Assembly: GCA_018267825.1 (NCBI GenBank)
Contig: JAFDXR010000001.1
Span: 234,286 to 298,285 of the forward strand
Direction of reading: 5' to 3'
Length of the DNA stretch: 64,000 nucleotides
Source of the DNA: Bacteroidota bacterium
Lineage (GTDB): Bacteria > Bacteroidota > Bacteroidia > B-17B0 > Aurantibacillaceae
Notes under the pieces: model-generated
The model's database searches: none
What the model was told of the DNA's origin: nothing
Seen by the model: only the letters and a program-made list of their open reading frames with translations
Part shown: in pieces, positions 1 to 25,497 of the stretch
How the letters are laid out: every line of letters starts with the position of its first letter
How positions within the stretch are numbered: position 1 is the stretch's first letter
Position numbers and translations under genes: made by a program

Positions 1-358
1 AAGAATAAGGCAAATGGAGGAAACCGGTATTATCAAAAGCCGTGTCACGATTTTAGATCCTTCCAAAATAGGCATGAGGCTTTTTGTTTACTGCAACATC
101 ACACTAAAGGAACAATCCAAAAAAAGTCTGCTGGATTTTGAAAAAGCCGCAGCCAAAATTCCGGAAATCATGAGTATTATCAGTCTTTCCGGCGTATATG
201 ACTACATGCTGAAAATTGCAACCACGGACATAGAAGCTTATAATAATTTTGTCATGAATAAACTGGCCAATATTCCGAATATTGCACAGTATCACAGCAA
301 TATCGTTATGAGTATAGTTAAAGACGATACAGCCTATATACTACCGGAAGGAAACTAA
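1..358 (+). CDS. Lrp/AsnC-family transcriptional regulator, C-terminal part (5' truncated by window)
   Basis: The frame is open to the left edge and reads RIRQMEETGIIKSRV, the usual link between the Lrp helix-turn-helix and its effector domain. The gene therefore starts before the window, and the in-frame ATG at 14 is internal. The remainder is a complete RAM/AsnC ligand-binding domain (beta-alpha-beta-beta-alpha-beta) with the family-typical segment ending SGVYDYMLKI. Such regulators form octamers or hexadecamers and sense amino acids. The DNA-binding domain is not visible, so the target cannot be read. The stop codon overlaps the end of argH by 4 bases on the opposite strand. Control of the neighbouring arginine operon is plausible from position only. 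Confidence 0.88.
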   Translation, partial: RIRQMEETGIIKSRVTILDPSKIGMRLFVYCNITLKEQSKKSLLDFEKAAAKIPEIMSIISLSGVYDYMLKIATTDIEAYNNFVMNKLANIPNIAQYHSNIVMSIVKDDTAYILPEGN

Positions 359-1668
359 CCTGCATTTATACGTCGGAAAACAGCATAAAAACTTTCACTG
401 ATCTTATCATTACAAAGGTTTCCCAGGCTTCCTTCATGTGTATGCCGAAGTTCTTTGTTGTATTCAAAAGTATTTTGCTTTACCACGTGTCCTACCTTAT
501 GGTAGGCATCTCTGAAGGGCATTCCTGAAAGCACCAGTTCATTTACATACTCCACTGTAAAGAGATGTTTGTAACGCTCATCCGACAAAATATCTTCTCT
601 TATTTTAATATGAAGAAGCATGAGGCCGGTCATTTCCAGGCAATCTTTCAACTCCTGTATTGCCGGAAAAAGGCAGGCTTTGGTGAGCTGCATATCGCGG
701 TGGTATCCTGAAGTAAGATTTGCCTGCAATAAGGTCAGCTCATTTGGCAATGCCTGTATTCTGTTGCATTTGGCGCGTATCAGTTCGAAGACATCGGGGT
801 TTTGCTTATGCGGCATGATACTGCTACCGGTGGTCAGTTCGCGCGGAAAAGATACAAACCCGAAATTCTGATTCATATACAAACAAACATCCATAGCCAG
901 TCGACCCAATGTAGAAGCAACAGCAGCAAGGGCCACCGCCGTCATTTTCTCCGATTTACCGCGAGTCATCTGGGCGTATACCACGTTGTAATTCATTTGC
1001 GAAAATCCAAGCAATTCAGTTGTCATACCACGGTTAAGCGGGAAAGAGGAACCGTAGCCTGCGCCGGAACCGAGGGGGTTCTTATTCACGATCCGGAATG
1101 CTGCCTCCACCATTTCCAGGTCATCGGCCAGGCTCTCGGCATAAGCGCCAAACCACAGACCAAATGAAGATGGCATAGCCAATTGGAGGTGTGTATAGCC
1201 CGGAAGCAGCGTTTTCTTATGCTTTTCACTTAATGAGATCAGACTTACAAAAAGTTTCTCCATGTCAAGAGACACATTCCTGAGCTGCTGTCTCAGAAAT
1301 AATTTTATATCCAGCAAAGCCTGGTCATTCCGTGAACGCCCACTGTGTATTTTCTTTCCCACTTCGCCGCAGCACCGGGTCAATGTAAGTTCTACCTGCG
1401 AGTGTATATCCTCAACACCATCTTCAATACAAAACTGCCCCCGACGTATTTCATCCATAATCCATGTTAAACCTGCTTCAAGTGTTTTCCATTCCTCATC
1501 AGTCAGCAAACCCACGGAGGCCAGCATCCTTGCATGAGCGAGAGAGCCCTGTACATCACAGATAGCCAGTTGCATATCGAATTGATTATCGTTTCCAATT
1601 GTAAACCGCTCTATTTTCCTGAGCAGTTCTGAATCGCTTATTGTTTCATTCTGTAACCAGAGTTTCAT
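355..1668 (-). CDS. argH: Argininosuccinate lyase
   Basis: Cytosolic enzyme that splits argininosuccinate into arginine and fumarate, the last step of arginine synthesis. The fumarase/aspartase-superfamily signature GSSIMPHKQNPD lies near residue 280, and HSGRSRNDQ near residue 108 is the substrate-binding segment of ArgH. At 437 residues it is close to the usual 440-460. It is the last gene of the eight-gene arg operon, with one base between it and the M20 deacylase gene. It converges with the Lrp-like gene, overlapping by 4 bases, and no terminator hairpin is obvious at the junction. Confidence 0.96.
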   Translation of the reverse strand: MKLWLQNETISDSELLRKIERFTIGNDNQFDMQLAICDVQGSLAHARMLASVGLLTDEEWKTLEAGLTWIMDEIRRGQFCIEDGVEDIHSQVELTLTRCCGEVGKKIHSGRSRNDQALLDIKLFLRQQLRNVSLDMEKLFVSLISLSEKHKKTLLPGYTHLQLAMPSSFGLWFGAYAESLADDLEMVEAAFRIVNKNPLGSGAGYGSSFPLNRGMTTELLGFSQMNYNVVYAQMTRGKSEKMTAVALAAVASTLGRLAMDVCLYMNQNFGFVSFPRELTTGSSIMPHKQNPDVFELIRAKCNRIQALPNELTLLQANLTSGYHRDMQLTKACLFPAIQELKDCLEMTGLMLLHIKIREDILSDERYKHLFTVEYVNELVLSGMPFRDAYHKVGHVVKQNTFEYNKELRHTHEGSLGNLCNDKISESFYAVFRRINAG

Positions 1669-1669
1669 C

Positions 1670-2734
1670 TTATTTCAAATTATTGTAAAGGGTCAGCATC
1701 TGTATATACCGATCTATTCCATCTTCTATTTCCTTAACATAAATAAATTCATCGGCTGTATGGGATCTTGCAGAATCACCCGGCCCCATCTTAAACGTAT
1801 AAAACGGCATGAGGGCCTGATCGGATGTGGTAGGTGAACCATATAGGGCAGCTCCTGTGGCAACAGCGGCCTTCACCATGGCATGATCTGACGGCACCGA
1901 CGACGGGTTAAGACGTACTGAACGGGGCTCAACACGGCATTTTACTTCTGTTCGGATTATATCAAGAATTTCCTGGTTTGAGTATGCATCTGTTGTTCTT
2001 ACATCCACAGTGAACCGGCAGGTATCCGGAATCATGTTGTGTTGCGAACCGGCCTCAATCATACTCACGGTCATTTTAACGGGTCCCAGTGTATCTGAGA
2101 CATTTGCAAAACGAAATGACCTGAACCACTCAATATCAGGCAATGCTTTGTAAATGGCATTAATACCCTCTTCACGGGCTGCATGTCCGGCCTTACCATG
2201 CGTTTCGCAATCCAGTACCATGAGTCCTTTTTCCGAAACAGCTACATCCATTTTTGTTGGCTCGCCCACAATTCCAAAGGAAACAGGCCCGAGCACGGGT
2301 AATAGCCGCTCAATACCGTCATGGCCCGAAATTTCTTCTTCGGCAGTAGCCGCAAACACAACATTGAAATTCAAAGCCGGCATATCATAAAAATGCAGGA
2401 AACATGCCAGCAATGAAACCAGGGCTCCGCCGGCATCGTTGCTCCCAAGGCCGAAGAGTTTACCATCTTCCAGGGAAGGTAAGAAAGGATCTCTTGTATA
2501 TTTCGCATTCGGTTTTACAGTATCGTGATGGGAATTCAAAAGAATAGTTGGTTTCAATGGGTCGGCATAACGATTGATCACCCAGACATTATTCATGTCG
2601 CGGTTTACAGGAATACCTTTTTGTTCAAGAAACGCTCCCAGCAATGCCGCCGTCTGATCTTCCTCTTTACTATAAGATGGGGTTGCAACAAGCTGTCTCA
2701 GTAATTGAATTATTTCCGCTTTGTCTGTTTTCAT
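1670..2734 (-). CDS. M20-family acyl-ornithine/acyl-citrulline deacylase (ArgE-like)
   Basis: Zinc-dependent M20 peptidase-family amidohydrolase, 354 residues. Metal-binding motifs are visible: NSHHDTV (about residue 87), GLGSNDAGGAL (about 116, with the bridging Asp) and TAEEEISGHDG (about 150, with the catalytic Glu pair). The dimerisation insert follows (GKAGHAAREEGINAIYKAL). In an operon with a carbamoyltransferase of the ArgF' type, the expected job is removal of the N-acetyl or N-succinyl group from citrulline rather than from ornithine. That is inference from context; sequence alone does not fix the acyl group. It overlaps argB by 4 bases, suggesting translational coupling. Confidence 0.88.
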   Translation of the reverse strand: MKTDKAEIIQLLRQLVATPSYSKEEDQTAALLGAFLEQKGIPVNRDMNNVWVINRYADPLKPTILLNSHHDTVKPNAKYTRDPFLPSLEDGKLFGLGSNDAGGALVSLLACFLHFYDMPALNFNVVFAATAEEEISGHDGIERLLPVLGPVSFGIVGEPTKMDVAVSEKGLMVLDCETHGKAGHAAREEGINAIYKALPDIEWFRSFRFANVSDTLGPVKMTVSMIEAGSQHNMIPDTCRFTVDVRTTDAYSNQEILDIIRTEVKCRVEPRSVRLNPSSVPSDHAMVKAAVATGAALYGSPTTSDQALMPFYTFKMGPGDSARSHTADEFIYVKEIEDGIDRYIQMLTLYNNLK

Positions 2735-3522
2735 TCTACTTTCAATTTAGTGCCGGCTCTTCCGCTCAATGCACTTTGCAATGAGGCGGCCCCGCATATA
2801 CATACTTCCTGAGAACCAGATGCCAATGCCCTGAAAGCATTGTCGAGTTTGGGTAACATGCCACCATACAAAACTCCTTCCGATTTCAGCCTTCGGTAAT
2901 CTGTTTCTGATAGTTCCCGGATACAGGAATTCTCATTATCCGGATTCAACATAACGCCTGGCTTTTCGAAGCAATAAAATAAATCTACTTTGAAATGCGG
3001 TCTCAAAGCAATGGCAATGACAGAGGCAATACTATCCGCATTGGTATTCAACAGCTGACCTTCTCCGTTGTGTGTAATAGCGCATATAACAGGTGTAACG
3101 CCAGACTGTAACTGAGCATTTAAGAATTTTGTATTTACAGCACCAGGTTTTACATCGCCTACGTAACCATAATCGACCGGCTCTGCTACGCGTCGCGAAG
3201 CACATAATAATCCCCCATCTGCACCTGAAAACCCTGCTGCCTGGCAACCCAGCTTCTGCAGTAAAGCTACGATCCGTTTATTGATCAGGCCTGCGTAAAC
3301 CATCACAGCAATATCAAGCGTAGGAGCATCGGTCATACGACGTCCCTCGATCACTTTCTGTTCTACACCAAGTAAAGAAGCAAGTCTATCGGTTAGTTTT
3401 CCACCACCGTGCACCAGTATCTTAGGCCCCGGGATTGCACAAAAGGATACCAGAAATTCATGAAGTGCAGCCTCATCGTCGATAACATGCCCTCCTATTT
3501 TCACTACTTTTATTGTTTCCAT
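2731..3522 (-). CDS. argB: Acetylglutamate kinase
   Basis: Amino-acid-kinase-fold enzyme that phosphorylates the gamma-carboxylate of N-acylglutamate, second step of arginine synthesis. Visible motifs are VKIGGHVIDDE (residues 6-16, nucleotide loop), LVHGGGKLTD (about 36-45, substrate loop) and a late NTNADSIASVIA segment that corresponds to the family NxNAD signature. Length 263 is normal. It lacks the long N-terminal helix of arginine-inhibited hexameric forms, so feedback inhibition by arginine is less likely; this is inference from length. It sits between argF' (5-base gap) and the deacylase (4-base overlap). Confidence 0.95.
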   Translation of the reverse strand: METIKVVKIGGHVIDDEAALHEFLVSFCAIPGPKILVHGGGKLTDRLASLLGVEQKVIEGRRMTDAPTLDIAVMVYAGLINKRIVALLQKLGCQAAGFSGADGGLLCASRRVAEPVDYGYVGDVKPGAVNTKFLNAQLQSGVTPVICAITHNGEGQLLNTNADSIASVIAIALRPHFKVDLFYCFEKPGVMLNPDNENSCIRELSETDYRRLKSEGVLYGGMLPKLDNAFRALASGSQEVCICGAASLQSALSGRAGTKLKVE

Positions 3523-3527
3523 CCTTT

Positions 3528-4475
3528 TTAAATTGTCTGAAGCATTCTGAACAATACGGCCTGGGCGGCATATATTCTGTTTTCAGCCTGTTTCATGATC
3601 AGTGAGTATGCGTTATCCAGCAGAGCATCAGGCACCTCGAGGTTTCTCCGCACCGGCATGCAATGCATCAGTTTTGCCTGACTGGTAAGTTTCATTTTTT
3701 CGTCGTTGAGCATCCAGTTCTGTTCAACTGATGGCATATCCCCATAAGCATTATAGGCAGACCAGTTCTTCACATACACAACATCGGCGTCTTTCAGGGC
3801 TTTTTCCTGATCGTATTCGATATCAGCACCCCTGGTAAAGTCTTCGCATAATTCATAACCAGCTGGCTGCGTTATTGTAAGTTTATAATCGCAATGCAAG
3901 GCCCACTCTGCAAATGAATTGGCCACGACCTGCGGCAAAGGCTTCATATGAGGAGCCCATGTCAACACGACTTTTGGCTGTTTTACATCCACACACTCCC
4001 TTATAGTCATTATATCTGCCAGGCTCTGCAGAGGATGGAGCGTTGCTGACTCAAGGCTTATAAGCGGCGCCCTGCTGTATTTCATAAACTGCAGTAAAAC
4101 AGATTCACTGTAATCGGCCTGCTTATCGATGAGTGTCGGGAAACAACGTACGCCAATAATGTCGCAATACAATCCCATAACTGCTGCGGCATCTCTGATG
4201 TGTTCAACTGTTTTACCGTTCATTACTGCACCGTCATGAAATTCCAGGGCCCATCCTTCGTTACCTATATTCATAACCATGCAAGTCATGCCCAGATTCA
4301 TGGCCGCGCGTTGCGTGCTCATCCGGGTCCGCAGACTGGCGTTAAAAAATATAAGACCAAGCACTTTATTCCTTCCGATATCCGGTGAGGCAAAGGGAGA
4401 GTGTTTCCATTGCAAAGCCTCATGTACGAGGTCGTTTGCATCGGCAACATCATTTACTGTTGTAAAATATTTCAT
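3528..4475 (-). CDS. argF': N-acyl-ornithine carbamoyltransferase (ArgF', acetyl- or succinylornithine type)
   Basis: Transfers the carbamoyl group from carbamoyl phosphate to an N-acylated ornithine. The carbamoyl-phosphate loop reads SLRTRMSTQ rather than the STRT of ordinary ornithine transcarbamylase, and the later loop reads HCMPVRRN rather than HCLP followed by alanine. Both are marks of the Bacteroidetes/Xanthomonas N-acyl subfamily. I place the start at ATG 4475 (MKYFTTVNDV, 315 residues). The frame is open up to 4757, but the extra 94 residues lie antiparallel to nothing useful inside argD and match no family. The start overlaps the end of argD by 26 bases. Acetyl versus succinyl preference depends on a few pocket residues I cannot assign with certainty. 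Confidence 0.92.
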   Translation of the reverse strand: MKYFTTVNDVADANDLVHEALQWKHSPFASPDIGRNKVLGLIFFNASLRTRMSTQRAAMNLGMTCMVMNIGNEGWALEFHDGAVMNGKTVEHIRDAAAVMGLYCDIIGVRCFPTLIDKQADYSESVLLQFMKYSRAPLISLESATLHPLQSLADIMTIRECVDVKQPKVVLTWAPHMKPLPQVVANSFAEWALHCDYKLTITQPAGYELCEDFTRGADIEYDQEKALKDADVVYVKNWSAYNAYGDMPSVEQNWMLNDEKMKLTSQAKLMHCMPVRRNLEVPDALLDNAYSLIMKQAENRIYAAQAVLFRMLQTI

Positions 4476-5604
4476 CTTCTTTAATAAGCATTGGGCTGAG
4501 TGCGTGAATAAACAAATCAATTTCCCTGTTACTGATAGCCAGTGATGGCAAAAGGCGGATGGTATTTTTATCTGCTGAACTACCTGTAAATATGCGGTGT
4601 ACAAAAAGTAACTGCCGGCGTATTTCGGCACAGGGTTCTTCCAGTTCGATTCCGGCCATAAGGCCCCTGATACGCAGATCACGAATCCCGGTAAAGTGCG
4701 ACAGTTTTTCCCCGAGGTAAACCCCCAGATTGGCAGCATTCCCGATAAGATTTTCATCGCGGATCACATCCAGAACTGCTATAGCCGCTGCGCAGGCCAG
4801 GTAATTCCCTCCAAAGGTTGTCCCAAGCATTTCTTTATGCACTTTAAGATCTGGGCTTACCAATACACCGGCAATAGGGAATCCATTTCCCATACCTTTT
4901 GCTACTGTAATAAGTTGTGGGCGAATGCCAGCATATTGATGTGCAAAAAACTTTCCACTGCGACCATACCCCGACTGTACTTCATCCAGGATGAGAATAA
5001 TACCATATTTCAGGCAGCGTCTTTCGATATGTTTCAGAAAATCCGGATCGGGTATTATCACCCCTCCAACACCCTGGATTCCTTCAATAATAACGGCGCA
5101 TACATCATCCCCCGCGACAGCATCAAATGCTTCCATATCGTTCAGCGGCAAAAAAACCACCTGTGCATTCTGATTAACAGGCGAAACAATTGAAGGATTA
5201 TCCGTTGCGGCTACAGCAAGCGATGTTCTTCCGTGGAATGACCCTTTGAATGCAATAATTTTTTTCCGTTTATTATTAAATGATGCCAGCTTAAAAGCAT
5301 TCTCATTGGCTTCGGCACCGGAGTTACATAAAAAAAGATTATAATCCGTATAGCCCGACAATTCTCCGAGTTTGAAGGCCAATTCTTCCTGCAACGGCAT
5401 TTTAATAGCGTTAGAATAAAAACCAATCTTCCTGATTTGTTCAGACAGAGCCTTCAAATACACAGGATGACTATGTCCGATCGAAATAACGGCATGTCCG
5501 CCATAAAGGTCCAGGTATTTATTACCAAAAGAATCCCAAAGGTCGCAGCCACGTGCTTTGACAATATCTATGTCGAATGTTGAATATACATCAAGTGGTT
5601 TCAT
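4450..5604 (-). CDS. argD: Acetylornithine/succinylornithine aminotransferase
   Basis: Class III pyridoxal-phosphate aminotransferase, 384 residues, converting N-acylglutamate semialdehyde to N-acylornithine. Motifs in order: LYGGHAVISIGHSHP (about 33-47), NSGAEANENAFKLA (about 94, phosphate cup), FHGRTSLAVAAT (about 123), ILDEVQSGYGRSGKFFAHQ (about 205, cofactor Asp) and TVAKGMGNGFPIAG (about 233, Schiff-base Lys). Start MKPLDVYSTFDIDIV is typical of the family. It is 11 bases after argC, and its 3' end overlaps the start of argF'. Confidence 0.95.
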   Translation of the reverse strand: MKPLDVYSTFDIDIVKARGCDLWDSFGNKYLDLYGGHAVISIGHSHPVYLKALSEQIRKIGFYSNAIKMPLQEELAFKLGELSGYTDYNLFLCNSGAEANENAFKLASFNNKRKKIIAFKGSFHGRTSLAVAATDNPSIVSPVNQNAQVVFLPLNDMEAFDAVAGDDVCAVIIEGIQGVGGVIIPDPDFLKHIERRCLKYGIILILDEVQSGYGRSGKFFAHQYAGIRPQLITVAKGMGNGFPIAGVLVSPDLKVHKEMLGTTFGGNYLACAAAIAVLDVIRDENLIGNAANLGVYLGEKLSHFTGIRDLRIRGLMAGIELEEPCAEIRRQLLFVHRIFTGSSADKNTIRLLPSLAISNREIDLFIHALSPMLIKEDEIFYNSK

Positions 5605-5615
5605 ATTTATTCTAT

Positions 5616-6590
5616 TTAAAATACACTGGCTTTTAATTTCAATCCGCTGGTCTCTTCCAACCCAAACATAATGTTCATATTTTGTAACGCCTGCCCTGAA
5701 GCGCCTTTCAGCAGATTATCAATTATACTGATCACCATCAATTGATCGCCGGCCTTCTCGATATACAGGATACACTTATTCGTATTGACCACCTGCTTAA
5801 GATCAATGGCAGACCTGCTGAGTTTTACGAACGGATGTTTCATGTAATAGCGTTCATATAAGTCCATGAGTTCGGAAACCTTCCATTCACATTTCAACAC
5901 CTGCACCGCCATGATTCCCCTGGTAAAACTCCCCCTTTGAGGAACCATTGTTAACTCCGGACTTGTCCCATCCATAAGCTGTTCCAGGCTCTGGCGAATT
6001 TCCGATAAATGCTGGTGCGTAAACGCTTTATAGACAGATAGGTTATTCTGCCGCCAGCTGAAATGCGAACTCTCTGTGAGCTCCCGGCCAGCGCCTGTAG
6101 AGCCAGTTGTACAGTTAATCTGCACGGGTCCCTGTATTATTTTCTCCGTTGCCAGTGGCAGCAATCCGAGTTGTATAGCTGTTGCAAAACATCCCGGGTT
6201 TGCCACATAAAATGCTTTGCTGATCAACCCGCCATTTAATTCCGGCAAGCCGTAGACAAATGGCTTTGACCCGCTCCCGGCCACGCGGTGATCCTGGCTC
6301 ATATCAATAATCCTGGCCGATGCCGGAATTTTTTCTTCCGTCATTATTTTTTTTGCTTCGCCATGCGATACACATAGAAAAACAACGTCAACATCCAAAT
6401 CCATCCTGTGATGAAAAGTGAGAGGGGTATCGCCAAGCAGATCGGTATGAATATCGGAAACATAACGGCCGGCAAACTGACGACTGTGTGCATATACAAT
6501 CTCAGCCAAAGGATGATTCAGTAACAGGCGGATCAGTTCTCCACCCGTATAGCCAGCTGCGCCAACAATTCCGACTTTAATTCTCTTCAT
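5616..6590 (-). CDS. argC: N-acetyl-gamma-glutamyl-phosphate reductase
   Basis: NADPH-dependent reductase making N-acylglutamate semialdehyde from the acyl phosphate. The N-terminal Rossmann motif is VGIVGAAGYTGGELIRLL (residues 7-24). The catalytic cysteine lies in YVANPGCFATAIQLG (about residue 153), followed by TGSTGAGRELTESSHFSWR. Length 324 is normal for the short bacterial type. It overlaps the end of argG by 14 bases, consistent with one operon. Confidence 0.96.
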   Translation of the reverse strand: MKRIKVGIVGAAGYTGGELIRLLLNHPLAEIVYAHSRQFAGRYVSDIHTDLLGDTPLTFHHRMDLDVDVVFLCVSHGEAKKIMTEEKIPASARIIDMSQDHRVAGSGSKPFVYGLPELNGGLISKAFYVANPGCFATAIQLGLLPLATEKIIQGPVQINCTTGSTGAGRELTESSHFSWRQNNLSVYKAFTHQHLSEIRQSLEQLMDGTSPELTMVPQRGSFTRGIMAVQVLKCEWKVSELMDLYERYYMKHPFVKLSRSAIDLKQVVNTNKCILYIEKAGDQLMVISIIDNLLKGASGQALQNMNIMFGLEETSGLKLKASVF

Positions 6591-7794
6591 AAAATTCTGT
6601 CTGGTTTACCTGGTGATAAATACTTGTTTGGTTACCGAAGATTTTAATAAACCCTTTCACGTCTTCTCCACTCCAGGCCTTGTTCATTTCGCCATAACTC
6701 CCGAATTGCGCCGACATGAGATCATGAGGACTTTGAATACCGTTCAGGACAAACCGGTACGGCATAAGTGTCACAAACACTTTCCCACTGACTTTTGCCT
6801 GAGTGCTTTCCATAAACGCCTCCAGATCACGCATCACCGGGTCCAGCATTTGCCCCTCGTGCAACCAGTTGCCATACCAGGAAGCAAGCTGATCTTTCCA
6901 GTAGAGTTGCCACTTTGTAAGCACGTGCTTTTCGAGGAGGTGATGTGCTTTGATACAAATGAGGGGGGCTGCCGCCTCAAATCCGACTCGGCCTTTGATA
7001 CCGATAATGGTATCGCCTACGTGTATATCTCTTCCTATGCCATAGGGCTGAGCCAGGGAATGCATGTATTCGATGGCATCCACGGGATGTTCAAAAGTTT
7101 GTTCATCTACAGACAACAACCTTCCATGTTCAAATTCCAGGGTCATTTCACGGGTTTCGTGTGTTGATAAAGGAGTTGGCCAGGCTGATTCCGGCAGATA
7201 CTGATCAGAGGTCAGGGTTTCTTTACCTCCAACAGAGGTCCCCCAAATCCCTTTATTGATGCTATAAACAGCTTTTTCAAAATTAAATGCCACCCCCTGT
7301 GACTGCAAAAAAAGAATTTCTTCTTTCCTGCTCAACCTTTGATCTCTGACCGGAGTTACAATTTCAACCGATGGAATAAGCTGCCTGAAAATCATATCAA
7401 ACCTGACCTGATCATTGCCAGCACCGGTACTGCCATGTGCAATAGCATTTATACCGAGGGATTTGGTGTATTGTGCTATTTTAATTGCCTGCACGATACG
7501 TTCGGCACTTACACTCAGGGGATAGGTTCCGTTTTTTAAAATATTTCCATAAATAAGAAAACGGATGCATTCGTCGTAATATGTATAGCGCACATCCAGG
7601 CATTTGAATGATGCCATTCCCAACTGGTTTGCTTTTTCATGCAATTCGGTAATATCTGCATCAGAAAACGCTCCCGTATTGATGGTTACACCGTGTACCT
7701 CATACCCGCATACTTTTTTTAAATACGCTGCGCAATAGGTTGTATCGAGTCCGCCGCTGTATGCCAGGACAATTTTTTTTGTAGGCTGTGTCAT
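6577..7794 (-). CDS. argG: Argininosuccinate synthase
   Basis: ATP-pyrophosphatase-fold enzyme joining citrulline and aspartate. The P-loop AYSGGLDTTYCA (residues 11-22) and the aspartate/citrulline-binding segment AHGSTGAGNDQVRF (about 120-133) are both present. Length 405 is normal. It overlaps the upstream GNAT gene by 4 bases (start and stop codons interlocked) and the downstream argC by 14 bases. In the N-acyl variant route it still acts on free citrulline, after the M20 deacylase. Confidence 0.96.
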   Translation of the reverse strand: MTQPTKKIVLAYSGGLDTTYCAAYLKKVCGYEVHGVTINTGAFSDADITELHEKANQLGMASFKCLDVRYTYYDECIRFLIYGNILKNGTYPLSVSAERIVQAIKIAQYTKSLGINAIAHGSTGAGNDQVRFDMIFRQLIPSVEIVTPVRDQRLSRKEEILFLQSQGVAFNFEKAVYSINKGIWGTSVGGKETLTSDQYLPESAWPTPLSTHETREMTLEFEHGRLLSVDEQTFEHPVDAIEYMHSLAQPYGIGRDIHVGDTIIGIKGRVGFEAAAPLICIKAHHLLEKHVLTKWQLYWKDQLASWYGNWLHEGQMLDPVMRDLEAFMESTQAKVSGKVFVTLMPYRFVLNGIQSPHDLMSAQFGSYGEMNKAWSGEDVKGFIKIFGNQTSIYHQVNQTEFYEEN

Positions 7795-8435
7795 ATAAAA
7801 AATTTCGTTTTTTTAAATAATGATGATTTTATTCTGCTGACCATTTGTTTCTTTTTTACCGCGGGTATTGAGCCGGTCTTTTCGTTCTCCGGATTCTTCG
7901 CCTTATGTTCGGCCGGATCATAAAGCATAGCGGTGCACAAACAATTCCTGAATTGTTTGCTGCAAAGAATTTCATAGTTCACACAACTTTTACAACCACT
8001 CCAGAAAACCTCATCATGCGTAAGCTCCGAATAAGTTACAGGTACGTAGCCCAATGCCGAATTAATTTTCATGACCGCTAAACCGGTAGTGAGCCCAAAA
8101 ATTTTAGCATCGGGGTACTTGGTTCTTGAAAGTTGAAATATCTGTTTTTTGATAGCAGCTGCCACACCATGCATTCTGAATTCAGGAGATACAATAAGGC
8201 CTGAATTAGCGACATACGCGCCATTCTGCCATGTTTCGATATAACAAAATCCTGCCCACTGTCCATCGTCGGATAAGGCAATGACGGCCTTACCTTCAAG
8301 CATTTTCTGCTCGATATAATCTTCAGAACGCCTGGCTATACCGGTTCCGCGCACTTTTGCTGATGCCTGCATCTCTTCACAGATCTGCGTTGCATATTTC
8401 ACATGCGCTTTATTCGCTATTTGTACGACTATCAT
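7791..8435 (-). CDS. GNAT acyltransferase heading the arginine operon, with Cys-rich C-terminal segment
   Basis: Residues 1-150 are a GNAT fold. The acetyl-CoA loop region is SPEFRMHGVAAAIKKQIF (about 84-101), a slightly divergent R/Q-x-x-G-x-G/A. As first gene of the operon it is the best candidate for the missing N-acylglutamate synthase (step 1), since no ArgJ or classical ArgA is seen here. The end of the domain has an unusual cysteine cluster: WSGCKSCVNYEILCS and then FRNCLCTAMLYDP (about 135-170), five Cys in about 22 residues. That pattern could bind a metal. A basic, low-complexity tail of about 45 residues follows. Function is inference from family and operon position. Confidence 0.82.
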   Translation of the reverse strand: MIVVQIANKAHVKYATQICEEMQASAKVRGTGIARRSEDYIEQKMLEGKAVIALSDDGQWAGFCYIETWQNGAYVANSGLIVSPEFRMHGVAAAIKKQIFQLSRTKYPDAKIFGLTTGLAVMKINSALGYVPVTYSELTHDEVFWSGCKSCVNYEILCSKQFRNCLCTAMLYDPAEHKAKNPENEKTGSIPAVKKKQMVSRIKSSLFKKTKFFI

Positions 8436-8451
8436 TGAAAATATTTTTTGA

Positions 8452-8493
8452 CAAAAATAACACTTTATTAGTTTTTTTATCTTTAAAAAGATA
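8452..8493 (-). promoter_or_regulatory. Candidate promoter and operator of the arginine operon
   Basis: On the minus strand TATTTTTG (8459-8452) matches the Bacteroidetes -7 element TAnnTTTG, 16 bases ahead of the first arg codon. No good -33 TTG lies at the expected distance. Just upstream is a 16-base inverted repeat, TATCTTT-AA-AAAGATA (8478-8493), in the place where a regulator could block or assist polymerase. It does not resemble the ArgR box well. Promoter call moderate, operator call weak. Confidence 0.4.
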
Positions 8494-8544
8494 CAATATT
8501 AGATAAATATTAATAATGAGGCAAAAAAAACAGACAAAAAAACG

Positions 8545-8575
8545 AAATAAAAAAAGCAGCCCTTTTGGAGCTGCT
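8545..8575 (-). terminator. Rho-independent terminator of lysA
   Basis: Read on the minus strand, AGCAGC and GCTGCT form a 6-bp stem around a 9-base loop (8575-8555), followed by a run of seven T. It lies 22 bases after the lysA stop and separates lysA from the arginine operon promoter. Confidence 0.85.
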
Positions 8576-8596
8576 CAATATATCATGAGAAAAAAA

Positions 8597-9751
8597 TTAC
8601 ACTGAGTATACCGCACGCGTTTCGTCCCGCAGGTTATAACGGCTGCTCATTACTTCACCATAAGCACCGGCACTCCGTATCACCATGAGATCGCCGCGTT
8701 TTGTCAAGGGCAGGTTTACAGCTTTACCGAAACAATCACTGCTCTCGCAGATAGGCCCCACCACATCATATTTCATATCAGCAAATGCTGTGTTGGAGAT
8801 GTTCTCTATTTTATGAAAAGCCTGATATAAAGCAGGTCGAATAAGTTCTGTCATACCGGCATCCAGAATGGCAAAATTGGTATTGATTCCATTTTTAACG
8901 TACAGCACCCGGCTTACGAGGCTGCCGCACTGTGCTACAACCGCACGCCCCAGTTCAAAATGCAGCTGCTGGCCCGGGCGCAATTGAATAAAATCATGAA
9001 ACACTTTAAAATATGCTTCAAAGTCTATGATGGCTTCCTTGTCGGGCTCGCGGTAATTAATTCCCACTCCACCACCCACATTGATAACGGGCAAGTCGTA
9101 GCCTTTCTGTAAAAACCAATGGTTGATCTCGTTTACACGCAGGCAAAGGTTTTTGAACGGTGTTAAATCGGTAATCTGGGACCCTATATGAAAATGCAAT
9201 CCATTTAAACGAATATGTTCCAGGTCTTTCACGCGGGTCAACACCTCTTCAAATTCATAAGGATTAATACCGAACTTATTTTCTTCCAGTCCCGTGGTTA
9301 TATATTTATGTGTATGTGCATCTACATTTGGATTAATACGTAAGGCTATTGAGGCAACCAGGCCTCTTGCAGCCGCCAGTTCATTTATCACTTCTATTTC
9401 AGGAAGGCTTTCACAGTTAAAGCAGAAAATACCAAATTCCAGGGCCGCGATAATTTCCTCATCACTTTTCCCGACACCTGCGAATACCACCTGTTTGGGA
9501 TCAAAGCCCAGCTGAATGGCTTTTTTCACTTCGTTACCGCTTACACAATCTGCGCCCAACCCGGCTGCCCGGATCATCTCCAGGATTCGGTCGTTGGCAT
9601 TGGCTTTAAAAGCATAATGTACATGATAACCATATTTTTGCCGGGCCTTGTTTAAGGCCTCCAGGGTTTTACCAAGCAAAGCCAGGTCGTAATAATAAAA
9701 TGGTGTTTTCTCTGCGGCAAAGCGCGAAACGTCAAATACTGTTCCCATCAT
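8597..9751 (-). CDS. lysA: Diaminopimelate decarboxylase
   Basis: Group IV PLP decarboxylase that makes L-lysine from meso-diaminopimelate. The cofactor Lys is in HYAFKANAND (about residue 48). HFHIGSQ (about 190), NVGGGVGINY (about 225) and the CESSDCFGK segment near the C terminus (active-site Cys from the partner subunit) are all present. At 384 residues it is slightly shorter than many homologues but complete. ATG at 9751 is preceded by 7 bases separating it from lysC, so lysC-lysA are one transcript, ended by the hairpin at 8545-8575. Confidence 0.95.
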   Translation of the reverse strand: MMGTVFDVSRFAAEKTPFYYYDLALLGKTLEALNKARQKYGYHVHYAFKANANDRILEMIRAAGLGADCVSGNEVKKAIQLGFDPKQVVFAGVGKSDEEIIAALEFGIFCFNCESLPEIEVINELAAARGLVASIALRINPNVDAHTHKYITTGLEENKFGINPYEFEEVLTRVKDLEHIRLNGLHFHIGSQITDLTPFKNLCLRVNEINHWFLQKGYDLPVINVGGGVGINYREPDKEAIIDFEAYFKVFHDFIQLRPGQQLHFELGRAVVAQCGSLVSRVLYVKNGINTNFAILDAGMTELIRPALYQAFHKIENISNTAFADMKYDVVGPICESSDCFGKAVNLPLTKRGDLMVIRSAGAYGEVMSSRYNLRDETRAVYSV

Positions 9752-22442: not shown

Positions 22443-23327
22443 ATGCGCTATCTGCTAAGCACATACCTCTTCCTGCTCGCATCGGGGCTTTTTGCCCAGA
22501 CGCTTGTGATTGCGCACCGCGGGGCCAGTGCCTGGTCACCGGAGAACAGCCTTGAGGCTTTTCAGAAAGCGATCGATATGCATGCCGATATTATTGAAAC
22601 GGATGTGCATCAGACGGCCGACAGTGTACTGGTGCTGATGCACGATCTTTCGGTAAACCGGACCTGCGATATACCGGATAGTATTGCTGCCCGTCATCCG
22701 GGAAAAAAACTACTGATCCGGAATCTGACTTATGCCGAATTCGCGGCCCTGCGTATTCATCAGCGTCAGGTAGCTCCACCCAGTCTCGATGCGGCTATTA
22801 AGCTGATCAAAGGGCATTGCAAACTGCTTATCGAAATAAAAAGAGGCAGCGATTATTACCCGGGTATAGAGGCGCGGATTCTGCGGGTGATTCATGAAAA
22901 CCAGGCTGAAGACTGGGTCAGCGTGATCCATTCTTTCGATAAAAAAGCCCTGCTGGAGCTCAACAGGCAGCATACAGGCATTACCCTGCAGAAACTTATT
23001 GTATTTAAGCTACCTCTGAGCAGTCTGACCTATGCCAAACGTTTCAGCAAAGACGATTTTGAATGCTGGAAAGGGGTGAATGTGTATTACAGGTTTATAT
23101 CGCGGCGGCTTGTCCGCAAATTGCATAAATCGGGCAAAACGGTGTATGCCTGGACGGTGAATAAGCCCCGGGCAGCCCGGCGACTGGTGAAACGGGGGGT
23201 TGACGGCATTATTTCAAATAAACCGGATATGATAAAAAAATTCTTGCAGGAAAATAGAAAATCCGTATATTTGCAACCTCAAATCGGTTACGTAGCTCAA
23301 CTGGATAGAGCATCTCACTACGGATGA
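22443..23327 (+). CDS. Secreted glycerophosphodiester phosphodiesterase
   Basis: GDPD TIM-barrel enzyme releasing glycerol phosphate from lipid head groups. I start at ATG 22443 (MRYLLSTYLFLLASGLFAQ, signal peptide); a GTG 6 bases upstream is also in frame. Motifs: IAHRGASAWSPENS (catalytic His and Arg), ETDVHQTADSVLVLMHD (metal Glu/Asp and second His), IEIKRG. The domain ends naturally at about GIISNKPDMIKKFLQE. The frame then runs another 20 or so residues across the promoter and first 42 bases of a tRNA gene before a stop. Confidence 0.9.
   Translation: MRYLLSTYLFLLASGLFAQTLVIAHRGASAWSPENSLEAFQKAIDMHADIIETDVHQTADSVLVLMHDLSVNRTCDIPDSIAARHPGKKLLIRNLTYAEFAALRIHQRQVAPPSLDAAIKLIKGHCKLLIEIKRGSDYYPGIEARILRVIHENQAEDWVSVIHSFDKKALLELNRQHTGITLQKLIVFKLPLSSLTYAKRFSKDDFECWKGVNVYYRFISRRLVRKLHKSGKTVYAWTVNKPRAARRLVKRGVDGIISNKPDMIKKFLQENRKSVYLQPQIGYVAQLDRASHYG
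23244..23273 (+). promoter_or_regulatory. Promoter of tRNA-Arg, inside the phosphodiesterase gene
   Basis: TTG (23244-23246), 19-base spacer, TATATTTG (23266-23273): full match to the Bacteroidetes vegetative promoter. Transcription would start some 5-7 bases before the mature tRNA 5' end at 23286. Confidence 0.75.
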
Positions 23328-23359
23328 GAAGGTTTGGGGTTCGACTCCCTACGTGACCA
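23286..23359 (+). tRNA. tRNA-Arg (anticodon ACG)
   Basis: Complete cloverleaf of 74 bases. The acceptor GGTTACG/CGTGACC has one G-U pair, the D stem is GCTC/GAGC, and the anticodon stem TCTCA/TGAGA encloses the loop CTACGGA with ACG at 34-36. The T stem is TGGGG/CCCTA around TTCGACT. The 3' CCA is not encoded: the discriminator A is followed by CGA. A34 is expected to be edited to inosine to read CGU, CGC and CGA. It overlaps the tail of the phosphodiesterase frame by 42 bases. Confidence 0.96.
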
Positions 23360-23518: not shown

Positions 23519-24208
23519 TTAAGGGTTAATATCACAATACGACAAAAGCTTTTCAATAAGTTCATGAACTTTAGTTGACGGACAAGATTGCGAGGGGCTT
23601 TTCCCTATGTGCATTTCTTCAAGACGTTTTGCCCATGCAATTGCCTGCTTAATGTTGCATTTTTGAAATAAATGATTCACGACCTGGGTATCATTCTTTT
23701 CATATTTAAATCCAAGATTTTTTGAAAGTAATTTGATGTAATCCCCTCGATGAAGAGCGCTGGTTAAATATTGAAAATGCAAAAGATACCATAATTCGAA
23801 AGATTGATTTGAGTGCCCGCTTTTTATATTCTCACGTTTGGCAAGTGAAACTGCACTATCAAATCTATTATCAGGAAAATCATCTTTGTCATAAATAGCC
23901 CAGACCTCATCATACTTTGGTTTGAAAGACGCATTTCTTAAATTACGTAATTCAATTGCCTTTTTAACAACATTAATGGTATTATCCCCTTCTCCACTTA
24001 TCTCTATAGTTTCCAGTAATTCTTTTGGCAAGTAACTCTTAAAATGATTAAAATATATGGGTTCAGTTCTTTCTCCTTCTGTAACAATCAAGAAATATCT
24101 TCGTTCCTCGAACTTATCAATTTGCTTCGGCTCCAAAACCGTTTTTGATTTAAGTTCATTAAGAAAATCTTTAAATGAAGCTTGTTTATGTTTTTGTTTA
24201 TTACCCAT
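23519..24208 (-). CDS. RloB-like protein (TOPRIM-type nuclease candidate)
   Basis: 229 residues of the RloB family. A basic N terminus is followed by FLIVTEGERTEPIYFNHF (about 50-67) with the conserved acidic Glu, then VWAIYDKDDFPDNRF (about 105) with the D-x-D-like acidic pair, then the SFELWYLLHF motif (about 137). These acidic positions resemble a TOPRIM metal site. RloB accompanies an ATPase and is found in restriction and abortive-infection loci. It overlaps the ATPase gene by 8 bases, so the two are translated together. Composition is AT-richer than the surrounding core genes. The nuclease role is inferred. Confidence 0.8.
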   Translation of the reverse strand: MGNKQKHKQASFKDFLNELKSKTVLEPKQIDKFEERRYFLIVTEGERTEPIYFNHFKSYLPKELLETIEISGEGDNTINVVKKAIELRNLRNASFKPKYDEVWAIYDKDDFPDNRFDSAVSLAKRENIKSGHSNQSFELWYLLHFQYLTSALHRGDYIKLLSKNLGFKYEKNDTQVVNHLFQKCNIKQAIAWAKRLEEMHIGKSPSQSCPSTKVHELIEKLLSYCDINP

Positions 24209-25472
24209 TTATAATTAAACTCTCTAAATCTTCTATAAAAGGGATTCCTCCATACTTACCTTCCAAATAGTTTTTATCAAATGGAGAATCTTTTCTGGGC
24301 TTATATTCAACAAGTGAAGTAGCTCTCGTTGCACCATACTCGTTTTTTTCAACAAAGTAAATTTGATCTCTTCTTAATAGATTTCTATCCAATAAAGCAG
24401 TATCATGACTTGCAACAAGTAATTGAGCGTTTGACTTAACTTTCTGTGAGTTGAATAGTTTTATAATAGCTTTAGACAGCAACGTGTGCAATCTCGCGTC
24501 AAATTCATCAATCACAACTAATCTTCCTTCTAAAATAGCCTTTACAAATAAACCGATTAAGTTGAAATATTTTTTTGTTCCTTCTGACTCTGACCTATCA
24601 AGAATAAAAGGAACACTTCCAATTATTTTCCTTTTATCATCAAACTTACTATGAATCGCTAAAACCGCAGTTTCAGAACGTTCTTTAAATTTTTCTTTAA
24701 AAACTCCCTTTAACTCATCAGGAACCTGTTTTAAAATATCTTCTAATTTAATTGGAACATCAACAACATCAATTGAGCTAATACCTAAGTCGGCTTTCTG
24801 AATGAATTTATTAATTAGTTGTTTATATCTATCATTCTTAAGTAAATCTAAAGTGTATTCTCTATATTTTTCATCTGCAAGACCATGGACAGTAAATATA
24901 CTTTCTATCCAATTATCAATTTTCTGCGCTTTCTGAACATTCCATTGAGATGCAACTGAAAGAAATAACGCGTTCTTCCTGGTTCTTTTTTCTAACTCTT
25001 CGGAATTCTCAAATCGTTTAAAATCTATTTCAAAATCTTGGCCTATCCTAAGAAAAACTGGATATTCTTTAGTTGCTTTAGATTCTAATAACCATTCCCT
25101 ATGAATAATCTTCTTATCTGCCTCAAAGCCATATCGATATCTTTGTTTACCCAATAAAAAACTAATTTCAAAAAAGCTCGGTTTTTTAGATGAAGACTGT
25201 AGTAACTCAAATGGTTCAACATCAATTTCTTCAGAACTATGCTTTTCTGTTGCGGAATTATTAATGAACCATCTAAAATATACTAGTGCTTCTAATATCT
25301 TAGATTTACCACTTGCATTGTGCCCATAGAGCATCATAGACTTTAATAATGAAAACTTGTCTGTTTCTATAACATTTGACTCAGTATGTTCTCCAATAGA
25401 TGCTGCATTAAAGTTCAATGTAACTTCTTCGTTTATTGATTTATAATTAGAAGTCTTAAAATAAATTATCAT
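24201..25472 (-). CDS. AAA-family ATPase, RloA/AbiLi-like, partner of RloB
   Basis: ABC/SMC-related ATPase. The start domain is IIYFKTSNYKSINEEVTL; Walker A is MLYGHNASGKSKIL (about residue 53); the late half has LVVIDEFDARLHTLLS (Walker B) and LLVASHDTALLD (switch His). The signature is typical of AAA15/21-type proteins. I choose ATG 25472 (423 residues) instead of the GTG at 25490, because the GTG lies within the likely -7 element. First gene of a two-gene operon. In AbiL and PARIS-like systems such ATPases hold a toxic partner in check and release it on phage sensing; that mode here is inference. Confidence 0.85.
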   Translation of the reverse strand: MIIYFKTSNYKSINEEVTLNFNAASIGEHTESNVIETDKFSLLKSMMLYGHNASGKSKILEALVYFRWFINNSATEKHSSEEIDVEPFELLQSSSKKPSFFEISFLLGKQRYRYGFEADKKIIHREWLLESKATKEYPVFLRIGQDFEIDFKRFENSEELEKRTRKNALFLSVASQWNVQKAQKIDNWIESIFTVHGLADEKYREYTLDLLKNDRYKQLINKFIQKADLGISSIDVVDVPIKLEDILKQVPDELKGVFKEKFKERSETAVLAIHSKFDDKRKIIGSVPFILDRSESEGTKKYFNLIGLFVKAILEGRLVVIDEFDARLHTLLSKAIIKLFNSQKVKSNAQLLVASHDTALLDRNLLRRDQIYFVEKNEYGATRATSLVEYKPRKDSPFDKNYLEGKYGGIPFIEDLESLIING

Positions 25473-25489
25473 TTTATGCAGATTTTCCA

Positions 25490-25497
25490 CAAAAATA
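25490..25497 (-). promoter_or_regulatory. -7 element of the ATPase/RloB operon
   Basis: Minus-strand TATTTTTG fits TAnnTTTG, 18 bases before ATG 25472. No TTG at the usual -33 distance, so perhaps weak or activator-dependent. Confidence 0.45.

Follow-up and report, generated by a model that had tools for sequence, protein, structure and literature searches.

The window, by which we mean the whole 64,000-nucleotide stretch of DNA analysed, carries a tight arginine operon of eight genes, computed here as lying on one strand in the order GNAT-argG-argC-argD-argF'-argB-argE-argH. The GNAT gene comes first (7791..8435 on the (-) strand, complete, ATG start, 214 aa), and its stop overlaps the start of argG, the argininosuccinate synthase gene (6577..7794), as ATGA. 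Behind these lie, all on the (-) strand, argC for N-acyl-gamma-glutamyl-phosphate reductase (5616..6590), argD for N-acylornithine aminotransferase (4450..5604), argF' for a carbamoyltransferase of the N-succinylornithine type (3528..4475), argB for N-acylglutamate kinase (2731..3522), a deacylase gene of the argE/dapE type (1670..2734), and argH for argininosuccinate lyase (355..1668). The start of argF' is most likely at 4475, which is 26 nt inside argD. The argC, argB, and argH products score above the cut-offs of TIGR01850, TIGR00761, and TIGR00838, respectively. The argG and deacylase products were assigned through Pfam and NCBIfam models, and the NCBIfam scores of argG, argD, the carbamoyltransferase, and the deacylase are below the curated cut-offs (for argD, 338.7 bits against 410.05 for TIGR00707, with Pfam Aminotran_3 above its cut-off). 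The deacylase is the probable N-succinylcitrulline desuccinylase of the pathway, a role taken from what PMC7311316 reports.

Upstream of the operon, a terminator-like hairpin (8554..8576, (-)) stands between the end of lysA and the arginine genes; one such hairpin was found where shuffled sequences gave 0.3. A scan for sigma-70-type promoters alone found none in 8300-8700, and an Rfam search of the window found no arginine leader RNA, a tRNA being the sole match. Elsewhere in the window, a tRNA gene at 23286-23359 adjoins an RloB-like gene and an AAA ATPase gene (23519-25490, (-)) that are recognised by the AbiLii and AbiLi models and are likely a defence pair. The segment 24001-28000 has 36% GC, compared with about 46% on either side.

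The missing first step and the GNAT at the operon head

An earlier note on this DNA had remarked that the operon encodes the steps of arginine synthesis without a recognisable ArgA or ArgJ, and the Pfam and NCBIfam gene models bear this out. The genome (4.8 Mb in 33 contigs, estimated 100% complete) was also searched for an N-acylglutamate synthase elsewhere, using PF01960 for ArgJ and TIGR01890 for ArgA, and no protein exceeded either cut-off. PF01960 matched neither the genome nor the GNAT of the window, and the sole TIGR01890 match in the genome was the ArgB of the operon (39.8 bits, where the cut-off is 202.85). At E 0.1, TIGR01890 does not match the GNAT itself, which is thus not a classical ArgA by that model, and Pfam and NCBIfam detect no amino-acid-kinase domain in it. 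Other GNATs exist in the genome, with 22 further matches to the general model PF00583, and it is the operon position together with the comparative data that singles out this one.

The Pfam GNAT match of the protein reaches 20.3 bits, just under the cut-off of 20.7, and therefore the family is a diverged GNAT. Two segments of the protein stand out for their conservation. The first, RxxGxA at residues 87-92 (8160..8177, (-)), was compared in 178 distinct relatives (180 loci minus two duplicates, ~48–100% identical to the window protein) and has R87 in 178/178, G90 in 173/178, and A92 in 173/178 of them, and we take it to be the acyl-CoA pyrophosphate loop of GNATs. The second, RGTGIARR at residues 29-36 (8328..8351, (-)), has R29, G30, G32, I33, and R36 invariant in a 34-sequence alignment (A1), and is, with the pattern RGTGI(A/S)xR, a candidate glutamate-binding segment.

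The gene is closely tied to argG, which is its same-strand neighbour in 156 of the 180 loci fetched, a fraction that is not a phylum average, as 80 of these loci belong to the closest named relatives. Among those named loci adjacency is seen in 79 of 80, and the eightieth stops at a contig edge. Across the full set, a contig edge cuts off one locus and argG is not adjacent in 23; 12 of these were included on the ground that their carbamoyltransferase is elsewhere, and their downstream sequence was read for only about 1 kb. In six of the 23 cases the genome has another copy that does adjoin argG, which makes these second copies, and the remaining 17 are sole copies. The second copies (L053, L065, L067, L068, L062, and L063) keep all four of the motif cysteines described below but differ in other places; four of the six, for instance, have FISSW or FISAW instead of the YIETW of the window protein. 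Three genera, all from one family, have GNAT and ArgG in a single frame of 588 aa (L042:2860-4623, L043:2739-4502, and L044:2705-4468, each in frame on the (-) strand), and a fourth genus of the family (L016) encodes the two separately. A further candidate, L073, is interrupted by a stop between GNAT and argG and was left out of the fusion count.

Computed co-occurrence across 296 genomes of the phylum tells a similar story: GNAT alone is present in 123, ArgJ alone in 121, both in one, and neither in 51, so that GNAT and ArgJ nearly exclude each other. The single genome with both (G287) may represent a transition state or a transfer. Within the genome's own taxonomic family, GNAT occurs in 12 of 61 genomes and a strong ArgC (at least 338 bits) in 11, all among those 12; the GNAT carrier that falls outside the 11 (G038) is an 82% complete draft. 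None of the 49 family genomes that are free of GNAT, some of them incomplete drafts, has a strong ArgC, and six other genomes of the family have weak ArgC matches alone, under 24 bits. Arginine synthesis looks patchily lost in this family.

The fold was computed with AlphaFold2, for which the window protein and 44 named relatives (out of 80) made up the 45 input sequences. The model has a mean pLDDT of 83.1 and a pTM of 0.76, with moderate values over residues 141-170 (block means 82, 79, and 76). Its best PDB match by VIA-align is the N-acetylglutamate synthase (NAGS) of Neisseria gonorrhoeae (2r8v, Z 17.0, rmsd 2.9, 151 aligned), which is also ranked first by Foldseek, and ArgA of Mycobacterium tuberculosis with AcCoA and glutamate (5yge) follows at Z 16.3 (rmsd 2.4, 143 aligned). 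Other GNATs score Z 15-16, at most 1-2 Z units lower than the NAGS matches, and the ranking of NAGS on top of the predicted structure's matches is suggestive only. A sequence search of the PDB for a solved member of the family returned weak GNAT relatives alone, the best being PA4794. Taken together, the argG adjacency, the fusions, the near-exclusion with ArgJ, the joint loss with argC, and the NAGS-like structure support the identification of this GNAT as an N-acylglutamate synthase.

The family itself is already in print. According to PMC5317091, which cites its authors' unpublished data, Cabys_1732 of Caldithrix abyssi, encoded in an argAGCBEH locus, was newly characterised as an N-acetylglutamate synthase, of a kind known until then from Bacteroidetes and C. 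abyssi alone. PMC7311316 reports that BT3761 of Bacteroides thetaiotaomicron is >50% identical to Cabys_1732, that genetic data place it in arginine synthesis, and that it is probably an N-succinylglutamate synthase; the same pathway was identified there in Echinicola and a Pedobacter, and most of the candidate genes matter when arginine is lacking. PMC9026213 names the enzyme ArgA2 and places it in Bacteroidetes genomes that have no ArgA (194 genomes). Eight named Pedobacter relatives at operon heads share 61-71% identity with the window protein, and through these and the shared gene context the GNAT is very probably of the BT3761/Cabys_1732/ArgA2 kind. The first-step role is thus already recorded for the family (PMC7311316, PMC9026213, PMC5317091). 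The suggestion of the earlier note that the GNAT is the first arginine enzyme therefore very probably holds, from operon context, co-occurrence, structure, and the printed role of the family.

Proposed reaction and the acyl donor

We hold with good confidence that this GNAT catalyses the first step of a linear arginine pathway, with succinyl as its likely donor and with a four-cysteine insert that likely holds a structural zinc. Taking the chemistry from the family and from NAGS, and the motifs and the fold from the protein itself, we infer that the single-domain GNAT would acylate L-glutamate at its alpha-amino group, most likely with succinyl taken from succinyl-CoA; the acyl-CoA would be bound at the RxxGxA loop and the glutamate near the RGTGI(A/S)xR segment. 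The succinylated intermediates would then be processed by ArgB, ArgC, ArgD, the succinylornithine-type carbamoyltransferase, and the operon deacylase, with ArgG and ArgH acting last.

The donor is read indirectly, from a residue of a neighbouring enzyme. PMC7311316 states that position 90 of the carbamoyltransferase decides between succinyl and acetyl substrates, and that S, P, A, or V favour succinyl. The carbamoyltransferase of the window has Val at this position (codon 4206-4208), and it matches the Bacteroides fragilis succinyl enzyme (2fg6) at 2.1e-97, compared with 3e-53 for the acetylornithine enzyme 3kzc; succinyl-CoA therefore appears the likelier acyl donor. A carbamoyltransferase could be paired with the GNAT in 112 of the 180 loci (68 are unpaired), and site 90 is covered in 109 of these pairs, in which it is V in 65, A in 24, S in 10, T in five, Q in two, and G, P, and I in one each. 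Thus 100 of the 109 have V, A, S, or P, and the nine with T, Q, G, or I fall outside the published rule. A division of the GNAT genomes into those with acetyl and those with succinyl partners was considered and dropped, as Glu occurs at site 90 in none of the 109 pairs.

The same enzyme might instead use acetyl-CoA and feed a pathway of acetylated intermediates. Cabys_1732 is after all reported as an N-acetylglutamate synthase (PMC5317091), and the best NCBIfam model for the carbamoyltransferase of the window is that of N-acetylornithine carbamoyltransferase, whose score of 283.4 bits falls short of the cut-off of 288. We nevertheless consider an acetyl donor unlikely, as the carbamoyltransferase is far nearer to the B. 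fragilis succinyl enzyme and has Val90 instead of Glu, and as Glu is absent from site 90 throughout the covered GNAT loci.

A conserved four-cysteine motif

The window protein has cysteines at residues 19, 64, 148, 151, 158, 165, and 167, and five of these seven fall within 20 residues (148-167), a clustering with p = 0.0036 under random placement. The five-cysteine cluster described in the earlier note is thus present as such, but conservation divides it. C148, C151, C165, and C167, which form a CxxC-x13-CxC motif (residues 148-167; 7935..7994, (-)), are cysteine in 178/178 distinct relatives and likewise in 81 aligned sequences, an invariance computed directly from the alignments, and the 81 also share W145, N153, L157, and T168 without exception. 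At position 158, 154 of the 178 relatives have M, T, K, or Q, and C158 was accordingly rejected as a fifth motif cysteine. Of the other cysteines, C64 is kept in 169/178 and C19 in 104/178. In the predicted structure the motif appears to lie in an insert between a strand at 131-133 and the last core strand at 168-172.

Given the full invariance of the four cysteines, the proposal that they hold zinc or an iron-sulfur cluster survives as a plausible four-cysteine metal site, of which C158 is not part. Structural zinc is the likeliest occupant, with an iron-sulfur cluster as a possible alternative. An insert spanning residues 142-167 would separate the sixth GNAT strand from the seventh, and its four cysteines would most likely bind a single structural zinc ion and shape that side of the fold. 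No paper on a four-cysteine motif of this GNAT family turned up in the portion of the open-licence literature available, and a word search of PMC7311316 and PMC9026213 for ‘zinc’, ‘iron-sulfur’, and ‘metal-binding’ gave no occurrence. In the literature found, as far as its accessible text goes, the structure of the family, its donor kinetics, and the four invariant cysteines are not described.

A sensing role has also been proposed for these cysteines, in response to arginine or redox state, and nothing was found in its support. In its fuller form, the site would carry a labile metal or an iron-sulfur cluster, and redox state or metal supply would switch the enzyme and so gate arginine synthesis. 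The complete invariance of the four cysteines in 178 relatives agrees with such a switch, and the zinc/iron site of ATE1 offers a precedent (PMC10115844; PMC9884297). However, the motif is also kept in the six second copies away from argG, its position in an insert of the fold suits a structural role, and no regulatory evidence was found, so that we view the switch as unlikely. Retention of the cysteines both in operon copies and in second copies apart from argG is no less compatible with a structural role than with sensing. A more specific version, in which the four cysteines form a regulatory zinc or iron-sulfur centre beside the acceptor site and gate the entry of glutamate in Bacteroidota in place of the amino-acid-kinase domain of classical ArgA, seems to us rather improbable. 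Zinc as against iron-sulfur at this site would tell how much of a phylum controls entry into arginine synthesis.

Several observations do not fit easily with the GNAT being a synthase, namely the 17 sole copies that have no adjacent argG, genome G287 with both GNAT and ArgJ, and genome G090 with both GNAT and the P-loop gene described below. Even so, it is highly improbable that the GNAT is a modifying enzyme, such as a protein or ornithine acyltransferase, with the true synthase encoded elsewhere: any of the other PF00583 proteins of the genome could in principle acylate glutamate, but the genetics of BT3761 (PMC7311316), the position at the operon head, the near-exclusion with ArgJ, the co-loss with ArgC, and the genome search in which no ArgA or ArgJ exceeded the cut-off all speak against it.

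A further candidate synthase and comparison with known systems

The synthase reading of the GNAT leaves the 51 genomes with neither GNAT nor ArgJ, and in 20 of these we find a P-loop protein of ~360 residues. Strong homologues of this protein (at least 364.9 bits) occur in 22 of the 296 phylum genomes, and six more have weak matches only. Apart from the 20, the carriers are G090, which also has GNAT, and G283, which also has ArgJ. In all 22 the gene lies 2.2-3.1 kb from the carbamoyltransferase gene, and in the six loci read (L223, L224, L225, L226, L227, and L228) it stands between argG and argC, for example at L223:12589-13683 (-), L225:12408-13487 (-), and L224 about 5323-6327 (+). A diverged GNAT in the genomes with neither enzyme was also sought and rejected: profile A1, in a search with no positive control of its own, found none in 20 of them, and the single-sequence search of the same sample had 124 positives.

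Pfam gave sub-threshold matches to CbiA and DUF1611 alone for two of the P-loop proteins, in the manner of DUF1611/CobB-like proteins; NCBIfam gave nothing over cut-off for the two scanned, and a PDB sequence search with one of them had no match at E 0.1. PF07755 was tried as a marker for the gene and abandoned, as it occurs in 62 of 296 genomes, nearly always away from the arginine-linked gene, and a direct protein search was used instead. Of 20 carbamoyltransferases read, those of 19 P-loop carriers have Ala at position 90 in 17 cases, T in one, and Q in one; the twentieth, from a non-carrier (G232), is unaligned at this position. DgcN is a D-glutamate N-acetyltransferase of the DUF1611 kind, and by analogy with it a role of the P-loop protein in glutamate N-acylation is plausible. 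This uncharacterised protein is thereby a candidate N-acylglutamate synthase of yet another kind, which may fill the first-step slot of the succinyl pathway in genomes where GNAT and ArgJ are absent. The lead may be newer than the GNAT finding.

Among known systems, BT3761/ArgA2 and Cabys_1732 are the closest to the GNAT of the window. As presented in the papers cited above, they too are GNATs of arginine loci that fill the step left by a missing ArgA or ArgJ, are widespread in Bacteroidota, and are partnered with a succinyl-type carbamoyltransferase. The window protein is likened to them by context and relatives, and no feature that distinguishes it from them was found. ArgA of M. tuberculosis (Rv2747), an S-NAGS of the kind described in PMC4490483, resembles it as a stand-alone GNAT domain that makes N-acetylglutamate and as a structural match at Z 16.3; however, identity over the structural alignment is 15%, and its donor is acetyl. 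Classical ArgA, represented by the N. gonorrhoeae NAGS 2r8v, is the best structural match to the GNAT part (Z 17.0), but its amino-acid-kinase domain is absent from the window protein. The GNAT-ArgG fusions recall the H-NAGS of Moritella as described in PMC4490483, in which argH is fused to a NAT domain, since both join a first-step transferase to a late arginine enzyme; the partner is ArgH there and ArgG in the fusions here. For the cysteines, the nearest parallel is the arginyltransferase ATE1, another enzyme of the GNAT fold, in which four conserved cysteines (CX2CXnCC) make up a metal site that PMC10115844 describes as binding zinc, with iron also reported, as affecting stability, and as influencing the substrate cleft in simulation. 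The site of ATE1 lies in an N-terminal, putative substrate-binding domain, with other spacing and in an enzyme of another reaction, and the likeness to the four-cysteine insert of the arginine-operon GNAT is one of analogy only.
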